This document shows, one piece after another, positions 3,458 through 58,175 of a DNA stretch of 64,000 nucleotides. This stretch comes from Oscillospiraceae bacterium (GTDB taxonomy: Bacteria > Bacillota > Clostridia > Oscillospirales > Acutalibacteraceae), in NCBI GenBank assembly GCA_015065665.1, contig SVPX01000001.1, positions 1 to 64,000 on the forward strand, read 5' to 3'. Under the pieces are notes generated by a model. The model saw only the letters and a list, made by a program, of their open reading frames with translations, did not search any database and was not told where the DNA came from. The first letter of the stretch is position 1, and each line of letters begins with the position of its first letter. The translations under genes and the position numbers were made by a program.

Positions 3458-4396
3458 ATGGCAAATATAAAATGTGTTGATGTTTCTGAGTGGCAGGGAA
3501 ATATAGACTGGAAAAAGGTGTACAAGGCAGGGTATACCTGTGCTATCCTCAGAGCAGGTTTCGGACGTTATGCATCTCAGAAGGATAAGTGTTTTGACGC
3601 AAACTATAAGAACGCAAAGGCGGCAGGTGTCAGACTGGGTGCATACTGGTACTCCTATGCAGTTGATAAAGCGGATGCTATTAAAGAGGCGAAAGCCTGT
3701 ATCTCAATCCTTAAGGGTAAGTCTTTTGAGTTGCCTGTATTCTTTGATATGGAAGAGAATTCTATGAAGAAACTTGGTAAGAAGACACTTACTGAAATGG
3801 CAAAAGCGTTCTGTGATACTCTTAAAAGTGCAGGATATAGGGCAGGTGTATACAGTAATCTGGATTGGTTTACAAACTATCTTGATTATAATTCCTTAAA
3901 GAAACTTTATCCCATCTGGTATGCACAGTATTACAAGGAAGCACAGATGGATTGTGATATCTGGCAGTATTCAAGCACAGGTAAAGTCAGTGGTATAAGC
4001 GGCAATGTTGATATGAATATTATTTATAATTCCTCTGTGATAAAGTCTGAAGAAGCAAAAACTACTCAGACAGAGAAGAAAGAGGAAACACCTCTCCTCG
4101 AAACTGCTGCTTTACAGGTTTTGCTCAGAATTGCGTTGGATTTAAAGGTAGTCAAGACTAATGTTACCCCTGTTAACAACATAAAAGGCAGACTTACAAA
4201 TGCCGCTATAATCGAAGCAAGAGAGTTTATGGGATACAAGAATCCTACATCCGATGTTGATATGGATTTTATCTGCAGTCTTGATAAGGCTCTCAGAGAA
4301 AAACTGGCTCTTCTTGCATCGGGTGATGTAAACGGTGATGGTAAGGTTGATATCAAGGATGCCACACAGATTCAGAGAAAGGTGGCAGGATTTTAA
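3458..4396 (+). CDS. GH25 endolysin (lysozyme) with C-terminal half-dockerin
   Basis: A 312-residue protein predicted to cleave the MurNAc-GlcNAc bond. Residues 1-195 form a GH25 fold: DVSEWQGNIDW at the N-terminus, the DxE catalytic pair in FFDMEEN, and DIWQYSSTGKVSGI before GNVDMN. A linker and an uncharacterised ~65-residue helical region follow. The last ~25 residues form a single dockerin-type Ca-binding repeat (GDVNGDGKVDIKDATQIQRK) like those on the secreted host proteins in this window. There is no signal peptide, as expected for a holin-released phage endolysin; the holin gene begins 1 nt after the stop. A normal dockerin has two such repeats, so this one is half. Confidence 0.9.
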   Translation: MANIKCVDVSEWQGNIDWKKVYKAGYTCAILRAGFGRYASQKDKCFDANYKNAKAAGVRLGAYWYSYAVDKADAIKEAKACISILKGKSFELPVFFDMEENSMKKLGKKTLTEMAKAFCDTLKSAGYRAGVYSNLDWFTNYLDYNSLKKLYPIWYAQYYKEAQMDCDIWQYSSTGKVSGISGNVDMNIIYNSSVIKSEEAKTTQTEKKEETPLLETAALQVLLRIALDLKVVKTNVTPVNNIKGRLTNAAIIEAREFMGYKNPTSDVDMDFICSLDKALREKLALLASGDVNGDGKVDIKDATQIQRKVAGF

Positions 4397-10356: not shown

Positions 10357-10977
10357 TTATTTAAGATTTGCAAGTTTCTTTTGAATAAAGGTTGCATCCT
10401 TTATATTGATTTCTTCATCCATATTTGAATCCATAATTATTTTTCTGTATTCTTCGCAAACCAGCTCAGTGTCCATATCTGCAAGGTGTTTCTGAATTGC
10501 AGTTGCATCTTTGATATTAAGCTGATGATTGCCGTCTGCATCTCCGATGGGATATACGGAGCGTCCCTGGAACCCGTCAAATTCCACAGTGGGAGAGAGG
10601 TCTGTGATTATCCCTTTGTTATAAGCTGTTTCCAAATCGTAAATCACACCGTCTTTTTGCACCAGAAGTGCAAGTCCGTTCGGCTTTTCAATTGAGTTGT
10701 TGTGATAAAACCAATCACCAATTATTATATGTATTCCTGCAGTAAGTGTTAAGTGCCAGGAATGTGCAGCAAAAAACACAACTCCGTCAGATTCTACAAC
10801 TTTATCTATTCCGGGAGCACCAACCCAAGGAGCAGGTTCATATTTGCTGTTGTATGTGGTTTCCATATATTCTATATAGTCCTGAAGCAGTTTTTCTTCA
10901 TCAACTTGTGCTGATGCTGTGATGAGTGAAGAAGATAATAAAATAAGCGCAAGGATAAGTGCAATTATTCTTTTCAT
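10357..10977 (-). CDS. Secreted protein with C-terminal dockerin-like module
   Basis: A 206-residue protein. The signal peptide is about residues 1-24 (KRIIALILALILLSSSLITASA). The central ~120 residues are unrecognised (VVFFAAHSWHLTLTAGIHIIIGDWFYH). The end carries two dockerin-like repeats, GDADGNHQLNIKDATAIQKHLA and, spaced ~35 residues on, DSNMDEEINIKDATFIQKKLA. I chose the ATG at 10977, 8 nt after AAGGAG; an in-frame GTG 9 nt upstream overlaps that SD. Dockerins bind cohesins, so the protein probably attaches to a surface scaffold. No cohesin is visible in this window. Confidence 0.8.
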   Translation of the reverse strand: MKRIIALILALILLSSSLITASAQVDEEKLLQDYIEYMETTYNSKYEPAPWVGAPGIDKVVESDGVVFFAAHSWHLTLTAGIHIIIGDWFYHNNSIEKPNGLALLVQKDGVIYDLETAYNKGIITDLSPTVEFDGFQGRSVYPIGDADGNHQLNIKDATAIQKHLADMDTELVCEEYRKIIMDSNMDEEINIKDATFIQKKLANLK

Positions 10978-11153
10978 ATTTGTCACTCCTTAATAAATAT
11001 AATGAGGTTTTCCTCTGTTATTATATTAAAATATAAAGTATCTTATTGTCAATAAAAAATTTTATGTTCGATATACTTTCGTTTTTTATGCAAGTGATAG
11101 TGTGGTGGCTTGTATAATTTAACAATCAATGTATGTTGCTTGTTTCTTGACTC

Positions 11154-11430: not shown

Positions 11431-11495
11431 ATTTTATCTGCTGTCTTTGTGACAGTATTCATTTGTTCAGTTAATTATTGGAAAGGATGATTTAT

Positions 11496-14126
11496 ATGAA
11501 GTGGACAGGTCTTAACGAACTCAGAGAGAAGTTCCTTTCATTTATGGAGAGCAAAGGTTGCCTCCGACTTGAGAGTTTTCCTCTGATTCCCAAGGACGAT
11601 AACAGCCTTCTGCTTATCAACAGCGGTATGGCTCCTATGAAAAAGTATTTTACAGGTGAAGTTACACCTCCCAGAACAAGAGTAACAACCTGTCAGAAGT
11701 GTATCCGTACTCCCGATATCGAGCGAGTTGGTATCACAGCTCGTCACGGCACATACTTTGAGATGCTGGGTAACTTCTCTTTCGGCGACTACTTTAAGAT
11801 TGAGGCTACAGCCTGGGCTTGGGAGTTCTTTACAGAAGTTCTTGAGATGCCCAAGGAGCTTCTCTATGTTTCTGTTTACGAGGAGGATGACGAGGCATTC
11901 GATATCTGGACTCAGCGCGTAGGTGTTGATCCCTCTCATATGTGCAGAATGGGCAAAGAGGACAACTTCTGGGAGCATGGTTCAGGTCCCTGCGGTCCTT
12001 GTTCCGAGATTTATTTTGACAGAGGTGTAGAGAAGGGTTGCGGCTCTCCCGACTGTAAAGTTGGTTGCGAGTGCGACCGCTTTGTTGAGGTATGGAACCT
12101 GGTATTTACTCAGTTTGAGAGCGATGGCAAGGGTAACTATACACCCCTTGAGCATCCCAATATTGATACAGGTATGGGACTTGAGCGTCTTGCTTGTGTA
12201 ATGCAGGGTGTTGACAACCTGTTCCTTGTTGATACAGTTCAGAATATTATGAAGCACATCTCTTCTGTTGTAGGTGTTGAGTACGGCAGAGACGATAAGA
12301 GCGATATTTCTCTGCGAGTTATCACAGACCATATCCGTTCCACAACCTTTATGATTGGTGACGGTGTAATGCCCTCCAACGAAGGCAGAGGTTATGTTCT
12401 GCGCAGACTTCTCCGCCGCGCTGCCCGTCACGGCAGACTCTTAGGTTACAACAAACCCTTCCTCTATGAAATCTGCTCTACAGTTATCAAGGAGAACGAG
12501 TCTGCATATCCCGAACTTAAGGAGAAAGAAGAGTTCATCACAAAGCTCATCCGCGTTGAGGAGGAAAACTTTGCAAAGACTATCGAGCAGGGTTTTGCTA
12601 TGCTTGATGCTATCATCAACAAGGGTGATATTAAGGTGCTCTCTGGTGAGGACACATTCAAACTCAATGATACCTTCGGTTTCCCTGTTGACCTTACCCG
12701 CGAGATTCTTGCAGAAAAAGGCATTGATGTTGATACAGACCGCTTCTATGAACTTCTTGCAGAGCAGAAAAAGCGTTCCAGAGATGCTCGTAAGAACGCA
12801 GGTGCAGATGCCTGGATTTCTGACAGCGTAGACCTCTCTGATGTATCTGCAACAGAGTTTGTCGGCTACACAGATTATTCCTGCGATGCAAAGATTAAGG
12901 CTATCATCGTTAACGGTGAGCGTGAGGTTGCTGCATCCGAGGGCGATAAGGTAGTAGTTGTACTTGACAAAACTCCTTTCTATGCAGAGAGCGGCGGTCA
13001 GGTAGGTGACACAGGTGTTATCACAATCGGCAACACAGAGGTTGAGATTACAAACACTACAAAAGACCACGCTGGTATCTTTATGCACGCAGGTGTTGTT
13101 AAGAAGGGCAGTTTCGCAGTTGATGACTGTGCAGTTGCTTCTATTGATGCAGACCGCCGTCAGGCTATTATGCGTAACCATACTGCAGCTCACCTCCTGC
13201 AGGCAGCACTGAGAAGCGTTCTCGGCAATCATGTTGAGCAGGCTGGTCAGCTTGTAAACGATGTTGCTGTTCGTTTTGACTTCACACATTTCTCTGCTCT
13301 TACAGCAGCAGAACTTGCCGATGTTGAGGCACTTGTAAATAAATATATCTTTGACGCTATCCCTGTAATCACCCGTGAAATGCCTATTGCAGAGGCTAAG
13401 GAAATGGGTGCAATGGCTCTCTTCGGTGAGAAATACGGTGATGTAGTCCGCGTTGTTAATGCAGAGGGTTGTTCTGTTGAACTTTGCGGCGGTACTCACG
13501 TTGATAATACAGCCAAACTTGGTCTTTTCAAGATTCGTTCTGAGGGTTCAGTTGCCGCAGGTGTTCGCCGTATTGAGGCTCGTACAGGTGACGGCGTACT
13601 CGAAATGATCAACAATATGCTTTCTGTTATTGCTACCTGCTCTGCAACTCTTAAGGTAAGCAATATTAAGGATCTGCCCGCAGGTTGCGAGAAGATTATG
13701 GAAGAGATGAAAGCAAAGGATAAGAGAATCGCAGAGCTGGAGAATCAGATTGCTGCAGGCAAGATTGCAAGTCTTGTTGACACTGCAGTTGAAATTGACG
13801 GCATCAGAGTTCTTACTGAGAAACTTCAGGATGCTGATGCTGATATGCTCCGTAATATGTGCTCAATGGTAACAGATAAGTTTGCAAACGCTGTTATACT
13901 CATTGCAGGTATCAATGGTGAGAAACTTACACTCTGTTGCGGTTGTGGCAAAGAGGCAATTGCAAAGGGCATCAAAGCAGGTAATGTAGTTAAGGCTGCT
14001 GCAGTTGTTACAGGCGGTAACGGTGGCGGTAAGCCTGATATGGCTATGGCTGGCGGCAAGGATATCTCTAAGGTAGACGAGGCACTTGCATCTGTAATTG
14101 ATACAGTTAAGTCAACTCTCGGCTGA
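11496..14126 (+). CDS. alaS: Alanyl-tRNA synthetase
   Basis: An 876-residue class II synthetase charging tRNA-Ala. The start is the ATG giving MKWTGLNELREKFLSFMESK, behind GGAAAGG; an in-frame TTG 18 nt upstream is less likely. Catalytic motifs include TTCQKCIRTPDIERVG and ARHGTYFEMLGNFSFGDYF. The editing domain has NHTAAHLLQAAL and the zinc-site CGGTHVDNT. The C-Ala domain ends in the glycine-rich GGNGGGKPDMAMAGG. The length is normal. Expression is controlled by the alanine T-box directly upstream, and a terminator follows at 14154. Confidence 0.98.
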   Translation: MKWTGLNELREKFLSFMESKGCLRLESFPLIPKDDNSLLLINSGMAPMKKYFTGEVTPPRTRVTTCQKCIRTPDIERVGITARHGTYFEMLGNFSFGDYFKIEATAWAWEFFTEVLEMPKELLYVSVYEEDDEAFDIWTQRVGVDPSHMCRMGKEDNFWEHGSGPCGPCSEIYFDRGVEKGCGSPDCKVGCECDRFVEVWNLVFTQFESDGKGNYTPLEHPNIDTGMGLERLACVMQGVDNLFLVDTVQNIMKHISSVVGVEYGRDDKSDISLRVITDHIRSTTFMIGDGVMPSNEGRGYVLRRLLRRAARHGRLLGYNKPFLYEICSTVIKENESAYPELKEKEEFITKLIRVEEENFAKTIEQGFAMLDAIINKGDIKVLSGEDTFKLNDTFGFPVDLTREILAEKGIDVDTDRFYELLAEQKKRSRDARKNAGADAWISDSVDLSDVSATEFVGYTDYSCDAKIKAIIVNGEREVAASEGDKVVVVLDKTPFYAESGGQVGDTGVITIGNTEVEITNTTKDHAGIFMHAGVVKKGSFAVDDCAVASIDADRRQAIMRNHTAAHLLQAALRSVLGNHVEQAGQLVNDVAVRFDFTHFSALTAAELADVEALVNKYIFDAIPVITREMPIAEAKEMGAMALFGEKYGDVVRVVNAEGCSVELCGGTHVDNTAKLGLFKIRSEGSVAAGVRRIEARTGDGVLEMINNMLSVIATCSATLKVSNIKDLPAGCEKIMEEMKAKDKRIAELENQIAAGKIASLVDTAVEIDGIRVLTEKLQDADADMLRNMCSMVTDKFANAVILIAGINGEKLTLCCGCGKEAIAKGIKAGNVVKAAAVVTGGNGGGKPDMAMAGGKDISKVDEALASVIDTVKSTLG

Positions 14127-14153: not shown

Positions 14154-14193
14154 AAAAGGTTCCGATCTTCAAATAAGACTCGGAACCTTTTTT
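14154..14193 (+). terminator. Terminator after alaS
   Basis: AAAAGGTTCCGA and TCGGAACCTTTTTT arms surround a short loop, followed by a T-run. Confidence 0.9.
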
Positions 14194-14283: not shown

Positions 14284-14320
14284 AAAATTGTAAGAAATAA
14301 CCTAAAAAGGAGGCTTGTTT

Positions 14321-15628
14321 ATGACCAAAAAACTTATAAGCACAATGTTAGTGGCATTAATGGTGCTGTCGTTATGCACTATGTCTTTTGGTACTGTTTC
14401 CGCTGATATCGGTGAACTTCCCCAGGTGACAGAGGGTTGCAACCGATATTTCTTTTATTTGCCAAAGATTTGGGAAAACGAGCTATCTCAGACAGCAGGT
14501 ATATACTGGTGGGAGAACACAGGCGCTATGGATGAGTGGCCCGGTGTGGAGGCTCATAAAGCTGATGCAGAGGGGCTTTTCTACTACGATGTGCCAAAGG
14601 ATGTATGGACTGTAATCTGGAATAATATGGTTACTTATGATGTCAGACAGGATGGTTGGCAGGATTCTCTTGAATATCAATTAGCAAGACAGACTATTAA
14701 TATCAATGTAGAATACTATGAACCCGGCGAGAGCCCATTATATCCCGATGGACTTGAGAGTTTCAATAATATGGTCTGGGTTGTTGACTATGAAAATTGC
14801 AACTGTATGGAGTGGGATGTCAAGGGAATGAACGGTGATTGGTATTACTACTATGGAAATGGGGAATACGGTACAACTCCTGAACCCTCGGATGTGGTAT
14901 ATACAGACCGTTCAATTGGTGAATACTGTTCTCATCAAAAGCCTGAAACCGATGATTTCGGACTTCCTCAGGTGGCAGAAGGTTGCAATCGACACTACTT
15001 CCTTGCACCCGATGACTGGTTCAATGAGTATTCAGATTCTGTTGGAATCTATTGGTGGGAGGGTACAGGTGCTGCATCTTCCTGGCCGGGATACAAGGCT
15101 TACAAAGCAGATGCAGAGAATGTATATTATTACGATGTACCCAAGGATGTAAAGTACCTTATCTGGAACAATTACGTTAGTTTGTTCTTGGATGAATTCA
15201 ATGAAGGTCAGTGGGCAAACAAGCAGACAGGTTACAAAGAGTGGGAGGAGAACAAGGTGCCTCTCAACGATTGTAATGGTAAGATCTATGTAATCAACCC
15301 CGCAAAAACCGAGACTAATCCTTTTTCAGGCAAGATGACATATTTTGGCGATTGGTTTTATTACTATGGTAATGGTGAATATGGCATAACTCCAGAAAAA
15401 GAAACACCTGCTGAAAATATCTTAGGCGATGCAGATTTCAACAGCCTTCTCACAATATCTGACGCAACTGCAATCCAGAAATACACAGCAGGAATCGTAT
15501 CTGAGACTTTCAGTGTTACATTAGCTGATGTAAACGGCGATAAGGATATTAACATCAAGGATGCTACCGAGGTTCAGAAGCATCTTGCTCAGCTTCATTG
15601 TGACTATCCTATAGGCGACAAAGTATAA
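14321..15628 (+). CDS. Secreted protein: two starch-binding-like modules plus dockerin
   Basis: A 435-residue protein with a signal peptide (TKKLISTMLVALMVLSLCTM...VSA). Two tandem ~180-residue repeats follow, each opening LPQV(T/A)EGCNR and carrying IYWWE(N/G)TGA..WPG and GDWYYYYGNGEYG or GDWFYYYGNGEYG. The aromatic/WPG pattern resembles family-26 carbohydrate-binding (starch) modules. The C-terminus has a two-repeat dockerin (GDADFNSLLTISDATAIQKY and ADVNGDKDINIKDATEVQKH). No catalytic domain is seen. It is probably a surface-complex component that helps hold starch. The ATG at 14321 follows AAGGAGG. Confidence 0.78.
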   Translation: MTKKLISTMLVALMVLSLCTMSFGTVSADIGELPQVTEGCNRYFFYLPKIWENELSQTAGIYWWENTGAMDEWPGVEAHKADAEGLFYYDVPKDVWTVIWNNMVTYDVRQDGWQDSLEYQLARQTININVEYYEPGESPLYPDGLESFNNMVWVVDYENCNCMEWDVKGMNGDWYYYYGNGEYGTTPEPSDVVYTDRSIGEYCSHQKPETDDFGLPQVAEGCNRHYFLAPDDWFNEYSDSVGIYWWEGTGAASSWPGYKAYKADAENVYYYDVPKDVKYLIWNNYVSLFLDEFNEGQWANKQTGYKEWEENKVPLNDCNGKIYVINPAKTETNPFSGKMTYFGDWFYYYGNGEYGITPEKETPAENILGDADFNSLLTISDATAIQKYTAGIVSETFSVTLADVNGDKDINIKDATEVQKHLAQLHCDYPIGDKV

Positions 15629-15649: not shown

Positions 15650-15686
15650 AAAACCGCTTTCTGTGAATAGAAAGCGGTTTTGTTTT
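15650..15686. terminator. Bidirectional terminator between dockerin gene and folT
   Basis: AAAACCGCTTTC and GAAAGCGGTTTT arms with an 8-nt loop sit between converging genes; A- and T-tracts lie on both sides. Confidence 0.9.
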
Positions 15687-45159: not shown

Positions 45160-46026
45160 ATGGCAGTTTCAGTATTTATCAGTTATCGCCGTGACGGCGG
45201 AGATATAATGGCGCAGTTGCTTTATGAGCATCTGAAAATGCATGACCTTAATGTTTTTTATGATATTCATAGTCTGGGTACCTGCGAGTTCAATGTGAAA
45301 ATCAGTAACGCTATCCGTTCAGCCGATTGTATGGTGGTGTTGCTTTCAAAGGGGTGTCTTGACAGATGTTGTGATAATCCCAACGACTGGGTGCGTCAGG
45401 AGATTGCCTTGGCTTTTTCACTTGGCAAAGATGTTATCCCTGTGTTTATGAAGGATTTCAGATTTCCTGATAACCTGCCTGAGGATATTAAGAGAATCGT
45501 TCATTGTAATGGTATAATCATAGACAATATGACTCTCTTTGATGCTCGTGTAGAACATCTTGCAAAAATGTGTCGGGAGTCTGCCATCAAGCATGTTGAT
45601 AATAACGACTATACATATAAAACAGATGATGCCGCTTTAGAACTATTGGAGGAACGCAAGTTTCTGCTGGACAAAACCCGCTCGTGGCCTGTTATTGCAA
45701 CTCTGAGTTTTTTGCATTTTTTCTCTCTTTTTCTGTTAATGTATTCAATTGGTGCCGGTGATGCAGTAACCTTGGTCATATCCATAGCAGGCTCAATAGG
45801 TCTGATTATTCCTTTGTTCTTAAAGACAAAGAAATATATGGTCAAGTCAGGATTCCTTGCTTTCCTATTATCCTCATTATTATCCGCTGTTTGTTTTGTG
45901 GTTTCTTTGTTTATAATGTTCTTCACAACTTCAAAACGACACGCTGAACAAAAAGAGTACAAAAGAATCTGTATGGAAATCAAGGCTAAAAAGAAAGAGA
46001 TAAAAACAAAAAATAAGAAGAAATAA
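45160..46026 (+). CDS. TIR domain protein with C-terminal transmembrane segments
   Basis: A 288-residue protein. The N-terminal ~150 residues are a TIR domain: VSVFISYRRDGGDIMAQLLY, VFYDIHSLGTCEFN, DCMVVLLSKGCLDR and the NDWVRQEIALAF helix, whose Glu is the expected NADase residue. Residues ~180-265 hold three to four hydrophobic helices, ending in a very basic tail rich in Lys. Bacterial TIR proteins act as NAD-degrading immune effectors or signal producers; here the membrane region suggests membrane targeting. It is a single gene with its own promoter and no visible partner (such as ThsA). A terminator-like hairpin follows. Confidence 0.8.
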   Translation: MAVSVFISYRRDGGDIMAQLLYEHLKMHDLNVFYDIHSLGTCEFNVKISNAIRSADCMVVLLSKGCLDRCCDNPNDWVRQEIALAFSLGKDVIPVFMKDFRFPDNLPEDIKRIVHCNGIIIDNMTLFDARVEHLAKMCRESAIKHVDNNDYTYKTDDAALELLEERKFLLDKTRSWPVIATLSFLHFFSLFLLMYSIGAGDAVTLVISIAGSIGLIIPLFLKTKKYMVKSGFLAFLLSSLLSAVCFVVSLFIMFFTTSKRHAEQKEYKRICMEIKAKKKEIKTKNKKK

Positions 46027-47121: not shown

Positions 47122-47170
47122 AAAAAAATGTAGCGCAAAGCTGCTAAATTTAATATAGGAGATGATACTA

Positions 47171-48340
47171 ATGAGAACAGAACTCCGCAAAATCCTTGCA
47201 GTAGTTATGGTCCTCGCACTGGCAGTATCTATGTTTGCTATGAGCGTAAGCGCAACAACAAACGATCTTACTGCTGGCGACTTCATCGTTGCAACTCCCG
47301 ACGAGACAACACCTGATGAAGTAACAACACCCGACGAGCCCGTTGCAACACCTGATGTACTTATCTATGGTGATGTAAACCTCAACGGCGAAGTAACAAT
47401 CAGCGACGCAACAGAAATCCAGAAGGCAGTTGCAGCTCTTATTGAGCTTTCTGATCTTCAGGCTATGCTTGCAGATGTAGATGCTGACAGCGAAGTTACA
47501 ATCAAGGACGCAACAGAGATCCAGAAGTACATTGCACTTCTTCCTGTTGATGGTCTTACAGGCGTAATTGTTGGCAACGAGCCCACAGTAGACGAGAAGC
47601 CTGTTGTAACACCTGACGAGCCCGTTGTAACACCCGATGAGCCTGTAGTTACACCTGACGAGCCTGTTGTAACACCCGATGAGCCCGTTGTAACACCTGA
47701 CGAGCCTGTTGTTACACCTGACGAGCCCGTTGTTGTAGAGAAGGTTCTTATCACTTTCTACACAGCTAAGACTGGCTGGGTTAAGGATGCTGACGCATAC
47801 GTTCTTCTTATTGACACAGACACAAACGAAGTTTATGAGACAATCTTTGATGGTGAGAACTCCTGGACAGCAGAGGTTCCCGAGACAGTTGTAAACATTC
47901 GTTTTGACAGATGCGACCCCAATACTGGTGATGTTTGGAACTCCTGGACAGCTGCAGATCGTGGCGAGGCTAAAACATTCCAGACAGATGGCGACTTCGG
48001 CGTATGGAACGATGAGATCGCTGAGACATCTGAGGTTACAATCTACTTCGATAACTCTGTTACAAAGTGGGATTATGTTGCTTTCTATCAGTGGAGCGAC
48101 AGCTCTTTCGCACAGTACACAGTTATGACTCAGATTGAGGATACAGATATCTGGACACTCACAATTAACTCCAACATCACAACTGGTCTCTTCAAGGGTT
48201 CAGAGGTTGGAAAATGGGAGCCTATTCTCCAGACAGCTAACATCACAGTTGATACAGCTGCTAACGGCAACAACATTCTCTTCACAGTATTTGCTGGTGC
48301 AGAGATGTGGGAGACAACAGCTGCTCCTTACGAGGGTTAA
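47171..48340 (+). CDS. Secreted protein: dockerin, TPDEP-repeat linker, starch-binding modules
   Basis: A 389-residue protein. Signal peptide at residues 1-30 (LRKILAVVMVLALAVSMFAM..SVSA). A dockerin-like module occupies ~residues 60-135 (GDVNLNGEVTISDATEIQKA and DVDADSEVTIKDATEIQKY), placed N-terminally rather than at the usual C-terminus. Six 7-residue PVVTPDE repeats form a rigid acidic linker. The rest contains two β-domains (VLITFYTAKTGWVKDADAYV; VTIYFDNSVTKWDYVAFYQW) that resemble CBM26/starch modules. No catalytic domain. The start ATG at 47171 is behind AGGAG. Probably a surface-exposed starch-binding component. Confidence 0.8.
   Translation: MRTELRKILAVVMVLALAVSMFAMSVSATTNDLTAGDFIVATPDETTPDEVTTPDEPVATPDVLIYGDVNLNGEVTISDATEIQKAVAALIELSDLQAMLADVDADSEVTIKDATEIQKYIALLPVDGLTGVIVGNEPTVDEKPVVTPDEPVVTPDEPVVTPDEPVVTPDEPVVTPDEPVVTPDEPVVVEKVLITFYTAKTGWVKDADAYVLLIDTDTNEVYETIFDGENSWTAEVPETVVNIRFDRCDPNTGDVWNSWTAADRGEAKTFQTDGDFGVWNDEIAETSEVTIYFDNSVTKWDYVAFYQWSDSSFAQYTVMTQIEDTDIWTLTINSNITTGLFKGSEVGKWEPILQTANITVDTAANGNNILFTVFAGAEMWETTAAPYEG
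47600..47725 (+). repeat. Six in-frame 21-bp repeats encoding PVVTPDE
   Basis: Units follow CCTGTTGTAACACCTGACGAG with synonymous differences (CCC/CCT, GAC/GAT, GTA/GTT), so amino-acid sequence is conserved more than DNA. Confidence 0.9.
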
Positions 48341-48467: not shown

Positions 48468-48543
48468 TGGGCTGTAGCCAAGCGGTAAGGCAACGGACTT
48501 TGACTCCGTCATCCCGTGGGTTCGAATCCCGCCAGCCCAGCCA
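48468..48543 (+). tRNA. tRNA-Gln (anticodon TTG)
   Basis: Acceptor stem TGGGCTG with CAGCCCA, D-arm GCCAAGCGGTAAGGC, anticodon loop ACTTTGACT with TTG, T-loop TTCGAATCC, encoded CCA. A complete 76-nt cloverleaf. Confidence 0.97.
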
Positions 48544-48850: not shown

Positions 48851-49523
48851 AACCCCCGATTGTATCGGGGGTTCAAAAAAGCTTTAGCGGTAAATAAAAA
48901 TAGCTCCTTCTGATATAATGAAAGTGCGGTCTGGCAACTGCACAACAAAAAACAGAAGGAGGTCATCAAATGAATGACAATAACAGTTTAGCACACACCA
49001 GTTGGAATTGCAAATATCACATAGTTTTTGCACCCAAGTATAGAAGGAAAGTGTTTTACGGACAGAATAGGGCGGAGATAGGAAAAATACTAAGAGAACT
49101 ATGCGACTGGAAAGGTGTACATATAGTAGAGGCAGAGGTGTGTCCTGATCATATACACATGTTAGTAGAGATACCACCTAAGATGAGTGTGTCAGGGTTT
49201 ATGGGGTTTCTCAAAGGAAAGAGTAGTATAATAATACATCAAAGGCATGGAAACTTAAAATATAGATATGGAAACAGGTCGTTTTGGTGCAGAGGATATT
49301 ATGTAGATACGGCAGGTAAAAACACAAAAAGAATAGCCGAATACATAAAGAATCAGCTTAAAGAAGACCAACTCCACGACCAAATGACAATCGGAGGTTG
49401 GGAAGACCCGTTCACGGGTAGTAAGTAACAATCGCAAGTGTCAGACCGAAAAATGCGCCTTGGGGCGCTGCTTATAACAGAGCCTTTCAGGCGCATCTGA
49501 AATACCACCGGCTTAGCCGGTGG
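48851..49523 (+). mobile_element. IS200/IS605-family insertion sequence (TnpA only)
   Basis: The element is delimited approximately by a left hairpin (AACCCCCGAT TGT ATCGGGGGTT, 48851-48873) and a right hairpin (CCACCGGC TTA GCCGGTGG, 49505-49523), the imperfect-end arrangement of IS200. It carries one tnpA and no tnpB. CTCCTTCTG at 48904-48912 is complementary to CAGAAGGAG (the tnpA Shine-Dalgarno, 48953-48961). Exact boundaries are inference. Confidence 0.8.
48970..49428 (+). CDS. tnpA: IS200/IS605 transposase TnpA
   Basis: A 152-residue HUH single-strand transposase that excises and inserts at hairpin ends through a tyrosine nucleophile. Seen: HTSWNCKYHIVFAPKYRRK, the HUH motif in CPDHIHMLVEIPPK, and FWCRGYYVDTAGKN near the catalytic Tyr. 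The length is the norm for IS200-type TnpA, and the frame is intact, so the element may be active. SD AGAAGGAGG is unusually strong, but can be sequestered (see the element entry). -10 TATAAT at 48914-48919. Confidence 0.95.
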   Translation: MNDNNSLAHTSWNCKYHIVFAPKYRRKVFYGQNRAEIGKILRELCDWKGVHIVEAEVCPDHIHMLVEIPPKMSVSGFMGFLKGKSSIIIHQRHGNLKYRYGNRSFWCRGYYVDTAGKNTKRIAEYIKNQLKEDQLHDQMTIGGWEDPFTGSK

Positions 49524-50806: not shown

Positions 50807-52297
50807 TCAGTTTACTGTGAAGATGTAGAACTCATAGGGGTTGTATGTTTTGCCTTCAAGCTCACTGAAAGACATATCCTTGTCCTCAAAGTCAAAGTTT
50901 GTGCCATCATAGTGAATAACGCATTTTGCACCATCAATTCCAAGGTCAAAGGTTACATCGGATACTGCTTCGTACATAAGGTTTGCAGCATAGATAACCT
51001 TTTCGCCACCGTTTTCTCTTGTGAATACAAGGAAGTGGGGGTCGCTTGTCTCGATGAAATTAACCTCGCGGTTAGAGGTTAAAAGAGCTTTGTTTGTTGT
51101 TTTGAGTGTGGCAAGTTCTGTGATGAGTTCTTCATATTTAAGCTCAGACTCCCACTTAACAGGGTCTTTCTCAAAGAACTCGATTTCGTGGTTGTAGCCC
51201 TGCTCGTTACCTGTGTAAACAAGGGGGAAACCGGGAGTAAGGAAAGATAGTGCAAAGAGCGGCTCATAGGATGTGCCGAAACGATCATAATAAGTACCCT
51301 CCCAGGAGTTCTTATCGTGATTGTCTGTGTAGTTCATAGGGAAACTGCCCTGTGCATATCGGGTTGAAAGCTCCATGCTCTTCTGCAGAGGAGCCACAAA
51401 TATACCGCCCAGAATCATGCGGGACTGGTTGTACAGGTCATCGTTGTAGCAGCAGTCAAAAGCATAGGTGGTAAGGGCCTCTGAAGCGGCACACTCAGCA
51501 AGCATCATAATCTCGCTGTTAATGGATTTGAGTTTGTATACAGCCGCATTCCAGAATGTTGTGGGAACACCCTGTGCGTGGTCGCATCTGAAACCATCAA
51601 TGCCGATTTCCTCAACCCAGTACTGCATAGCTTTGATCATCTCTGCGCGCATTTCGTAGTTTTCGTAGTTAAGTTCTGCTGTATCAGACCAGTCGTAAGA
51701 GAAGATGATCTCGCCATCATCGTCACACTCGTACCAGTCTTTGTGCTCTGTAACCCACTTGTGGTCCCAGCCTGTGTGGTTTGCAACCCAGTCAAGAATA
51801 ACCTTGAAGCCCATATCGTGAGCTGTATCTACAAGGTGAATGAAATCTTCTTTAGTGCCGAATTCGGGATTTACTGCAGTATAGTCGTCAACAGCGTAGT
51901 AAGAGCCCAGAGTACCCTTTTTCTCGGTTTCGCTGATAGGGTGAATAGGCATAAACCACAGTGTATTAACGCCCATAGCTTTAAGTCTGTCAAGGTGACC
52001 TTCAAAAGCCTTGAATGTACCCTCTTCTGTGTACTGTCTTACATTTACTTCGTAGAGTACGCAGGTGTCAAGCCAGGAAGCAGTGTTCTTTGTGAGTACA
52101 TCGTCAGCAGCAGAAAGATCGGTCATAACGCCGTCTACAATACTGCCTTCCGGTACGTCATCAGAAAGAACATAGTCTACCTTCTGTGCTTCTGTTGCAG
52201 GAACAGTTGTTGTCTCTGTGTTGTCACCGTTTCCGTTGCAGGCAACAAGAGAAAAAGCCATAACTGCAACAAGTAAGAATGCTAAAAACTTTTTCAT
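50807..52297 (-). CDS. GH13 family alpha-amylase, lipoprotein
   Basis: A 496-residue glycoside hydrolase for α-1,4-glucans. The N-terminus KKFLAFLLVAVMAFSLVAC has a lipobox (LVAC) for membrane attachment, then an acidic linker rich in T/E. GH13 regions: DWVANHTG (region I), GFRCDHAQG (nucleophile Asp), MMLAEC (acid/base Glu), and YTDNHDK. The last ~80 residues form a β-domain (GGEKVIYAANLMYEAVSDVT). No dockerin or CBM26. The start ATG is at 52297; the SD is GGAG. Exact specificity (amylase, neopullulanase-like or oligosaccharide) is not resolved. Confidence 0.93.
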   Translation of the reverse strand: MKKFLAFLLVAVMAFSLVACNGNGDNTETTTVPATEAQKVDYVLSDDVPEGSIVDGVMTDLSAADDVLTKNTASWLDTCVLYEVNVRQYTEEGTFKAFEGHLDRLKAMGVNTLWFMPIHPISETEKKGTLGSYYAVDDYTAVNPEFGTKEDFIHLVDTAHDMGFKVILDWVANHTGWDHKWVTEHKDWYECDDDGEIIFSYDWSDTAELNYENYEMRAEMIKAMQYWVEEIGIDGFRCDHAQGVPTTFWNAAVYKLKSINSEIMMLAECAASEALTTYAFDCCYNDDLYNQSRMILGGIFVAPLQKSMELSTRYAQGSFPMNYTDNHDKNSWEGTYYDRFGTSYEPLFALSFLTPGFPLVYTGNEQGYNHEIEFFEKDPVKWESELKYEELITELATLKTTNKALLTSNREVNFIETSDPHFLVFTRENGGEKVIYAANLMYEAVSDVTFDLGIDGAKCVIHYDGTNFDFEDKDMSFSELEGKTYNPYEFYIFTVN

Positions 52298-55991: not shown

Positions 55992-56063
55992 ATACTAAAG
56001 TATGTGAATCGGACCATACATGAAGAATGTATGATTTTCAAAATCATTCAAGGAGGAATTCCG

Positions 56064-58175
56064 ATGAAAAGAAAGATATCGTTGTTTTTGGCAATTCTGA
56101 TGTTGGTGAGCCTTATGTGTACTGCACCTGTAACTGTAGGCGCAGAGGATACTGAAGCACAGGAAATCTCCGTGTATTTTGAGAATAACTGGCTGTGGGC
56201 TGATGTTTTCTATCATTCCTGGGGCAGTTCTCTTGATACAAATACAAACTGGGGCAGCGGCCAGGTTGAGAAGGTCGGTACCTCTGTAAACGGTTATGAG
56301 GTTTACAGGGCTGTGGTGGGTTCTGATGCTATGGGCGTGATTTTCGCAGGTATCAAAAATGATGGAACAGGACAGGAAGACCAGACTCCCAATATTGAGG
56401 AAGCTGATATTTTTGACGGTGCATGCTACTCTATGGTATGGGACGACGGTAATGCAACCGTTGTGAGTAATATCAATGATATATGTCCCGATATGGGTGA
56501 TGCTCCCGTAACCGACCCTGAGGAGGAAACAACCGTTGCAGAAACAGAAACAGTTGAAACCGACCCTACAGAGGCTCCTTTGACAGAGACTATCACAATT
56601 TATTTTGAGAATAACTGGCTGTGGGAAGTACCCATGATTTATTGGTACGGAAACGAAACCGGCGACCAGCCTCAGTGGCCCGGCATTGAAATGACTGCTG
56701 CAGGTAAAACCGATAACGGATATGACAGATATGCTGCGGAGGTTCCCGTTGATGTTCTGGGAATTGTGTTCAGCGGTAACGAAGAACAGTCAGAAGACGT
56801 TCTGGCAGGTTGGTTCGACGGAGTCTGCTATTATATGCTGTGGGATGAAGAAAGCCAGAGTAAATTTGCAGTTGCGTATGACAACGGATTTGTAGACCCT
56901 GAGGAGACAGTTCCCGAGGAGACAACAGAGCCTACGGAGGAAACAGAAATCCCCGAGGAAACCGAGGACAGCACAGAGGGAGAACTTCCCTCCGAGACAT
57001 ACACAGTATATTACGTGGACTCGGGTAACTTCTTTATGCCCTATGCTTATGCCTGGTCAGACGGCAAACGTCCCAATGGGGATTGGCCGGGAGAGCCAAT
57101 GGTGCTGACTGACATAGTGTCTCCCGATGGTTCTCCTGTATATTCCTACACAACACACACTTTGTATGAATACATTGTTTTCTCTGACGGCAGTGACCTT
57201 CAGACAGAAGACCTGCAGTTTATGCCTGACAAGTATCTCTGGTGGTCAGATGAGGTCTGGTATGATAACGTAAACGATATCCAGGTTGACGATGACGGTC
57301 CGGGTGCGGATGATATCCCCTGGGGTACAGCAGTGCTTGAGGGTTATACAATCAGTCTCGGCGGTAATATTGCAATCAATTATTTCTATACTCTTGCTGT
57401 GGATGTGGCCGAGTCGCCTGATACAAGGGTAGTGTTCACAGTTCCCGATTCGGGCTCTTATTATACTCTTGAGGTTCCTGTTTCACAGGCAAGATATGAC
57501 GGCACTTATTATATTTTCACCTGCAACGTTGACGCGAAGGAGATGACCTCCGTTGTGAAGTCTCAGCTTGTTTCCTCTGTTACAACAACACAGGTGGATG
57601 AGTATACAATCAAGGAATACGCTGTGACGATGCTCAGTGACCCCATTGCCTTTGAGGCTGAGCAGAGTGTTGTGAAGGCTATGCTCAACTATGGCGCAGC
57701 TGCTCAGATTTACTTTGATTATAATACGGATAATCTTGCAAACGATACAGAGTATATGACGGACGCAGATAAAGAGATCACAGAGCGGGATTTAACCGCT
57801 TATGAGGTGAGTGTAACAGGCAATACCGACAGCGACTATTTCTATGGTGCAACCCTTTGCCTTGAGTCGGAAACCTCGCTGAAACTTTACTTTGCACTTG
57901 CCGATGCACAGGATGAAGAAAGCGTAGAGATGCTGGTAGACGGAAGTCTTGTCAATGCAGTAAAGAATGGGAACGTCTATGAACTTGTTATAGAGAACAT
58001 TCCTGCTCATCTGCTTGGGGAGGCTTACGTTGTACAGACAGGAGACATCAGAGTGGAAATCAGCGCATTCAGTTACATCTGTCTTGCACAGCAGGATGGA
58101 AACTTAGCGCTTCGCAACGTATCAAACGCTCTGGCAGAGTACTCTGTGTGTGCAAATGCTTACGGTGCATATTGA
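56064..58175 (+). CDS. Secreted protein with three starch-binding (CBM26-like) modules
   Basis: A 703-residue protein. Signal peptide at residues 1-28 (KRKISLFLAILMLVSLMC...VGA). Module 1 begins ISVYFENNWLWADVFYHSW; module 2 ITIYFENNWLWEVPMIYWYG with QWPGIEM; module 3 YTVYYVDSGNFFMPYAYAW with WPGEPM. These share the N/S-W-x-x-P/A, Y-W and WPG pattern of CBM26-like starch modules and are joined by Glu/Thr-rich linkers. The C-terminal ~270 residues form an uncharacterised β-rich domain (GTAVLEGYTISLGGNIAINY). No dockerin or catalytic domain. The ATG at 56064 follows AAGGAGG. Confidence 0.8.
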   Translation: MKRKISLFLAILMLVSLMCTAPVTVGAEDTEAQEISVYFENNWLWADVFYHSWGSSLDTNTNWGSGQVEKVGTSVNGYEVYRAVVGSDAMGVIFAGIKNDGTGQEDQTPNIEEADIFDGACYSMVWDDGNATVVSNINDICPDMGDAPVTDPEEETTVAETETVETDPTEAPLTETITIYFENNWLWEVPMIYWYGNETGDQPQWPGIEMTAAGKTDNGYDRYAAEVPVDVLGIVFSGNEEQSEDVLAGWFDGVCYYMLWDEESQSKFAVAYDNGFVDPEETVPEETTEPTEETEIPEETEDSTEGELPSETYTVYYVDSGNFFMPYAYAWSDGKRPNGDWPGEPMVLTDIVSPDGSPVYSYTTHTLYEYIVFSDGSDLQTEDLQFMPDKYLWWSDEVWYDNVNDIQVDDDGPGADDIPWGTAVLEGYTISLGGNIAINYFYTLAVDVAESPDTRVVFTVPDSGSYYTLEVPVSQARYDGTYYIFTCNVDAKEMTSVVKSQLVSSVTTTQVDEYTIKEYAVTMLSDPIAFEAEQSVVKAMLNYGAAAQIYFDYNTDNLANDTEYMTDADKEITERDLTAYEVSVTGNTDSDYFYGATLCLESETSLKLYFALADAQDEESVEMLVDGSLVNAVKNGNVYELVIENIPAHLLGEAYVVQTGDIRVEISAFSYICLAQQDGNLALRNVSNALAEYSVCANAYGAY

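Follow-up and report, generated by a model that had tools for sequence, protein, structure and literature searches.

A two-unit dockerin protein encoded behind alaS, a probable starch-adherence accessory of a Ruminococcus bromii-type amylosome

The stretch of DNA analysed here, 64,000 nucleotides from an Oscillospiraceae bacterium and referred to below as the window, had been predicted to encode five proteins with CBM26-like modules or dockerin-like repeats and no catalytic starch domain of their own. One of them, encoded at 14.3 kb, combines two similar units with a C-terminal dockerin. The locus raises the question of what these units are and what a non-catalytic protein built from them does for the cell. 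In the degradation of resistant starch, R. bromii-type bacteria hold a keystone position; to our knowledge, the roles of the non-enzymatic amylosome parts are largely not known.

The 14.3 kb gene and the other proteins of the window

The open reading frame at 14321..15628 (forward strand, as are all its features) starts with the ATG at 14321, preceded by a ribosome site, AAGGAGG, at 14307-14313. A signal peptide (14321..14404, MTKKLISTMLVALMVLSLCTMSFGTVSA) was predicted by reading the translation, and the protein is presumably secreted. It is followed by two units of about 160 residues each: unit 1 (14411..14896, profile match 189 bits), a CBM26-like extended beta-sandwich module, and unit 2 (14960..15409, 166 bits), which belongs to the same family and has a shorter middle loop. 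The protein ends in a type I dockerin with two Ca-binding-type repeats (15425..15586), which scored 27.7 bits against PF00404, above the cut-off of 22.9. No X25 match was found in the protein with Pfam.

The gene lies behind alaS (11478..14126, forward strand, named from its sequence). It appears to be monocistronic, because terminator-like stems flank it on both sides: that of alaS at approximately 14154-14193, read by eye, and one at 15650-15681. The same two-unit dockerin gene is also found directly 3' of alaS in five other genomes, at the loci L095, L096, L097, L111 and L114. At two of these a further protein, which has three units behind an N-terminal dockerin, is encoded 5' of alaS (L095:2574-4610 and L114:6477-8504), so that the alaS region holds two unit genes there.

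The modules predicted for the other proteins were largely found, with some corrections. The small secreted dockerin protein of 209 aa at 10357..10986 (reverse strand) has a dockerin of two repeats (10372-10545) that scored 19.6 bits alone and 25.7 bits with its neighbours in frame; Pfam made no CBM26 call in it, and its unassigned N-terminal domain recurs at L097, L045 and L051 among dockerin proteins. The secreted dockerin protein at 47162..48340 (forward strand, PF00404 35.5 bits) consists of an N-terminal dockerin (47366-47533), a TPDEPVV linker and two C-terminal modules, the second of which aligns to CBM26-bearing or dockerin proteins of relatives; the single-sequence AlphaFold model of this tail had a pLDDT of 37. 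Just 3' of this gene and of a tRNA-Gln gene (48468-48543) an IS200-like transposase (PF01797) is encoded at 48970-49428, and a TIR-domain protein with C-terminal hydrophobic segments (PF13676, 49.8 bits), which may be membrane-bound and serve in defence or signalling, is encoded at 45160-46026. The secreted protein at 56004..58175 (forward strand) has three CBM26 stretches (PF16738, 71.8 bits) and no dockerin; Pfam matched nothing in its C-terminal region.

The GH25 lysozyme or endolysin (3458..4396, forward strand, PF01183 119 bits) ends in half a dockerin: exactly one EF-hand-type repeat precedes the stop codon, instead of the usual two, and it covers positions 2-22 only of PF00404 with 21.2 bits, below the cut-off. 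A frameshift in the gene, whose next open reading frame overlaps it, was considered and rejected. Judged by its sequence, the repeat is truly single, because the overlapping second frame holds no dockerin half.

A starch-cleaving domain is absent from all five proteins, and the GH13 amylase of the window (50807..52297, reverse strand, PF00128 118.8 bits) has neither CBM26 nor dockerin according to Pfam, both as predicted. The N-terminus of the amylase, read from the translation, is lipobox-like. Approximately 2 kb past the end of the window, a secreted protein of 3,701 codons is encoded at G000:C81:66119-77221 (L043:4120-15222); it has six CBM26 modules, a GH20 catalytic domain, PA14 and Flg_new repeats, and no dockerin match in Pfam. 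A relative of 3,580 codons is encoded on contig C3 (L042:62-10801).

The repeated unit and its kinship to CBM26

The repeat itself is clear: 71 of 150 positions (47%) are identical between the two units, and their alignment score of 325 far exceeds those of 200 shuffled controls, which reached at most 34. The CBM26 assignment of the 14.3 kb protein, in contrast, was literally rejected by the domain profile search. Pfam gave no CBM26 (PF16738) match at E<=1 for 14315-15628 (curated cut-off 28.1 bits), NCBIfam gave neither a CBM26 assignment nor any family match for the units, and a PDB sequence search with the units found no relatives, the unit profile yielding chance matches only. In substance the assignment survived, as both profile-profile comparison and fold place the unit near CBM26. 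When a unit profile built from 79 units was compared by hhalign with a profile of the CBM26 modules of this same genome, the two aligned over 54 columns (14-73 of 159) with a probability of 97.5% and an E-value of 6.5e-12, and the unit profile also weakly picked up the CBM26 modules of this genome.

AlphaFold gave a confident model of unit 1 (pLDDT 93.4, pTM 0.89), and a beta-sandwich fold was found both in the model and by Foldseek. The best PDB match was 6b15, the CBM26 of E. rectale Amy13K, followed by CBM25-2 of P. polymyxa, the CBM26 of B. halodurans and Sas6 (7uwu/7uww), presumably the same protein as Doc22; the Foldseek probability was 0.99, the best E-value 1.9e-3, which is borderline, and the TM-scores 0.3-0.4. 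Unit 1 keeps Tyr32/Trp33/Trp34, Trp43 and Gln94. Both units, and most members of the family, retain the residues that align to the aromatic platform of CBM26 (Tyr32 in 74 of the 79 units, Trp33 in 78, an aromatic residue at position 43 in 76, Gln94 in 56), and the WPG motif is present in both units. The unit shares with CBM26 (6b15, and 2c3h of B. halodurans) the core sandwich, the Y..W..WPG motif and the Gln after the last core strand. It differs in having about 60 residues more than the CBM26 core, with an inserted stretch and an extension at the C-terminus that ends in YYYYGNGEYG, and in lying below detection by the Pfam model. Across the 79 units, conservation is highest in YYYYGNGEYG, above that of the platform residues.

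Sas20 domain 1 of R. bromii resembles the unit as a CBM26-like sandwich with extra loops and of about the same size (residues 34-190). R. bromii Sas20 was located through its X25 domain at L189 and confirmed by its match to 7RAW/7RFT. Domain 1 was rejected as a member of the unit family: the unit profile scored 2.2 bits against R. bromii Sas20, and the hhalign probability was 0.2% in a comparison that used a single Sas20 sequence and would let a very remote link escape. RBR_09240, tried as the R. bromii 400-aa neighbour, gave no PDB match to Sas20d1 and was discarded.

The unit family is remotely related to CBM26 and by sequence distinct from CBM26, X25 and Sas20 domain 1, and we take it as a family separate from, but derived from, CBM26. 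It may already figure as an X module in Ze et al. 2015, which reportedly describes Sca2. A rival to the separate-family claim only, compatible with our explanation of the protein, is that the unit is a divergent CBM26 that existing models miss and that is new in neither fold nor function. This is a considerable possibility, although we lean the other way: hhalign and Foldseek both point to CBM26, and one unit-bearing relative has a sub-threshold Pfam CBM26 match of 15.3 bits, but only the 54 columns align, and the insertion and the conserved C-terminal extension are common to the family and absent from CBM26.

The two units of the 14.3 kb protein had been thought to be a tandem duplication of one unit, and this did not hold. 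In a tree built from 40 units, unit 1 groups with a unit of L095 (support 100/97) and unit 2 with one of L111 (support 100/95), both being nearer to the units of other species (62-64% identity) than to each other, and the AU test rejected a clade of the two (p 0.00014), which rules out a local or recent duplication at this site. The pair looks old and shuffled later, because both partner units sit in the alaS-linked gene of their own genome.

The unit family and the amylosome parts of the genome

A scan of genome contigs revealed unit relatives at 74 loci. Almost all of these carry the label Ruminococcus, Oscillospiraceae or Clostridia and come from animal guts, with R. bromii ATCC 27255 and R. 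bromii 5AMG among them. Within the genus, each of the 36 genomes has unit matches, some of them weak (of CBM26-like strength only), against none of the 23 genomes from other genera of the order. One genome of the genus has its unit match at the contig number and coordinates of the R. bromii ATCC 27255 record, so that R. bromii very probably belongs to the same genus as the genome studied here.

The search yielded 94 homologous proteins, of which 83 were complete. A dockerin is present in 46 of the 83, one of which has a cohesin too; 19 have a cohesin without a dockerin, 6 an anchor only, and 12 none of the three. The cohesin-bearing members have, almost without exception, a sortase-type or similar anchor at their end. 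Among 63 unit proteins scanned with Pfam, 25 had a dockerin match, 8 a CBM26 match and 5 a cohesin match, and no protein had GH13; some members carry Big_2, FN3 or LRR domains, and some relatives have strings of two or three units per protein. The unit occurs on both sides of the dockerin-cohesin system, in docked proteins and in anchored scaffoldins. It is nevertheless not tied to the amylosome only, because 12 complete relatives have neither dockerin, cohesin nor anchor.

Among known systems, the anchoring scaffoldins Sca2/Sca5 of R. bromii come close on the anchored side. In the R. bromii ATCC 27255 gene at L121:7782-9449, a unit precedes a cohesin and a sortase-type anchor. It closes a cluster of anchored genes (L121:1501-9449) with the order X25-cohesin-X25-cohesin-anchor, a 301-aa gene, unit-anchor (with an insert within the unit) and unit-cohesin-anchor. 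The first gene of this order is Sca5-like, and the name Sca2 would presumably apply to the unit-cohesin-anchor protein. The 14.3 kb protein differs from such scaffoldins in having a dockerin and no cohesin. The original prediction also proposed scaffold and regulation roles for the window proteins. The former is not supported for the proteins of the window, where dockerins and no cohesin were found, but relatives of the module occur on cohesin-bearing anchored scaffoldins of other species; the latter found no support.

The enzymes to be served were predicted to be encoded elsewhere, and the search of the genome for cohesins and dockerin-bearing GH13 enzymes bore this out. The assembly (1.74 Mb, 77% complete) contains 45 dockerin matches, 42 CBM26 matches and about 14 GH13 genes. 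Five reading frames on other contigs combine GH13, CBM26 and dockerin: on C30 (1001 aa), C50 (810), C89 (868), C96 (984, the verified one) and C104 (1100). R. bromii has five dockerin-bearing amylases, a number equal to that of this genome (PMC5814915). Pfam found one cohesin in the genome, while a profile of R. bromii-type cohesins, which matches the solved R. bromii Coh5 and Amy4, found two loci, on C96 and C3. The C96 protein has a lipobox-like N-terminus and one cohesin. The C3 frame of 580 aa (G000:C3:3339-5078, L053:340-2079) has a membrane segment at its N-terminus, and its sequence contains two regions that resemble cohesins, one of which was matched by the profile. Pfam gave no match to this frame at E<=0.01; the gene 3' of it has a dockerin repeat. 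Neither cohesin protein found in this 77%-complete genome carries the unit. Contig C40 breaks off within a paralogous gene that has at least three units. With cohesins and dockerin-bearing GH13 enzymes in one genome, this is an R. bromii-type amylosome.

Role of the 14.3 kb protein

From these results, we consider it probable that the 14.3 kb protein is a non-catalytic starch-adherence accessory of the amylosome. Once secreted, it would clip by its C-terminal dockerin into a scaffold, at the cell surface or free of the cell, whose presumed cohesin partner would bind it in a calcium-dependent manner, and its two CBM26-derived modules would hold alpha-glucan chains. The docked GH13 enzymes of the same complex would thereby be kept close to the starch granule, the role of the protein being one of avidity. 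Starch binding by the unit is suggested by its CBM26 kinship and the modelled fold. Points against this reading are the borderline Foldseek E-values, the roughly 60 residues outside the CBM26 core, the absence of the unit from both cohesin proteins found in the genome, and the 12 complete relatives that lack dockerin, cohesin and anchor.

Similar proteins are known in R. bromii, where the starch-adherence proteins Sas20 and Doc22 combine starch-binding domains with a dockerin (PMC9112005). Sas20 (7RAW/7RFT; PMC9112005) is likewise secreted and non-catalytic, with two starch-binding domains and a C-terminal dockerin. Its plan (a 7RFT-type domain 1, X25 and dockerin) was not found in the 14.3 kb protein: domain 1 of Sas20 has a helical bundle and domain 2 is X25, whereas the 14.3 kb protein has two copies of another module. 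Doc22, listed as SP CBM26 CBM26 DUF Doc (PMC9112005), is also a non-catalytic dockerin protein; it differs in having true CBM26 modules and a further domain, whereas Pfam finds no CBM26 in the 14.3 kb protein.

Two other functions of the unit were weighed against starch adherence. Like the X modules of cellulosomes, the units might be structural or protein-protein modules that have no affinity for glucan and serve as spacers or stabilisers of dockerins and cohesins. Many relatives have a unit adjoining a cohesin or dockerin, X-type modules of no known function are common in scaffoldins (PMC5814915), and the C-terminal YYYYGNGEYG is better conserved than the platform residues. We nevertheless find this quite improbable, given the kinship to CBM26 with its aromatic residues kept, the strings of two or three units, which suit avidity, and the true CBM26 on 8 of the 63 family members. 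A CBM26-like sandwich could also serve a different ligand, and the units might bind an alpha-glucan that is not dietary starch, such as glycogen or a glucan of the cell's own surface, or some other polysaccharide, in adhesion rather than in amylase help, as the 12 complete relatives without dockerin, cohesin or anchor and those with Big_2, FN3 or LRR domains would allow, but the strong starch equipment of the genome and the dominance of dockerin- or cohesin-bearing members in the family make this an improbable reading.

Within the starch-adherence explanation, a more specific idea is that the unit is a new CBM26-derived starch-binding family which evolved within the R. bromii genus and acts as a two-sided clamp, a unit on the anchored scaffoldin and those of the docked free protein both gripping the same granule. 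This is speculative and, on balance, rather unlikely. If true, the clamp would shape how amylosomes settle on resistant starch. The amylosome is a known kind of system; it is the unit module that appears to be uncatalogued in the libraries searched (Pfam and NCBIfam). As a short and well-defined target of about 160 residues with a confident model, it lends itself to an obvious starch-binding assay, and its function would also give a function to the N-terminal module of the R. bromii unit-cohesin-anchor scaffoldin.
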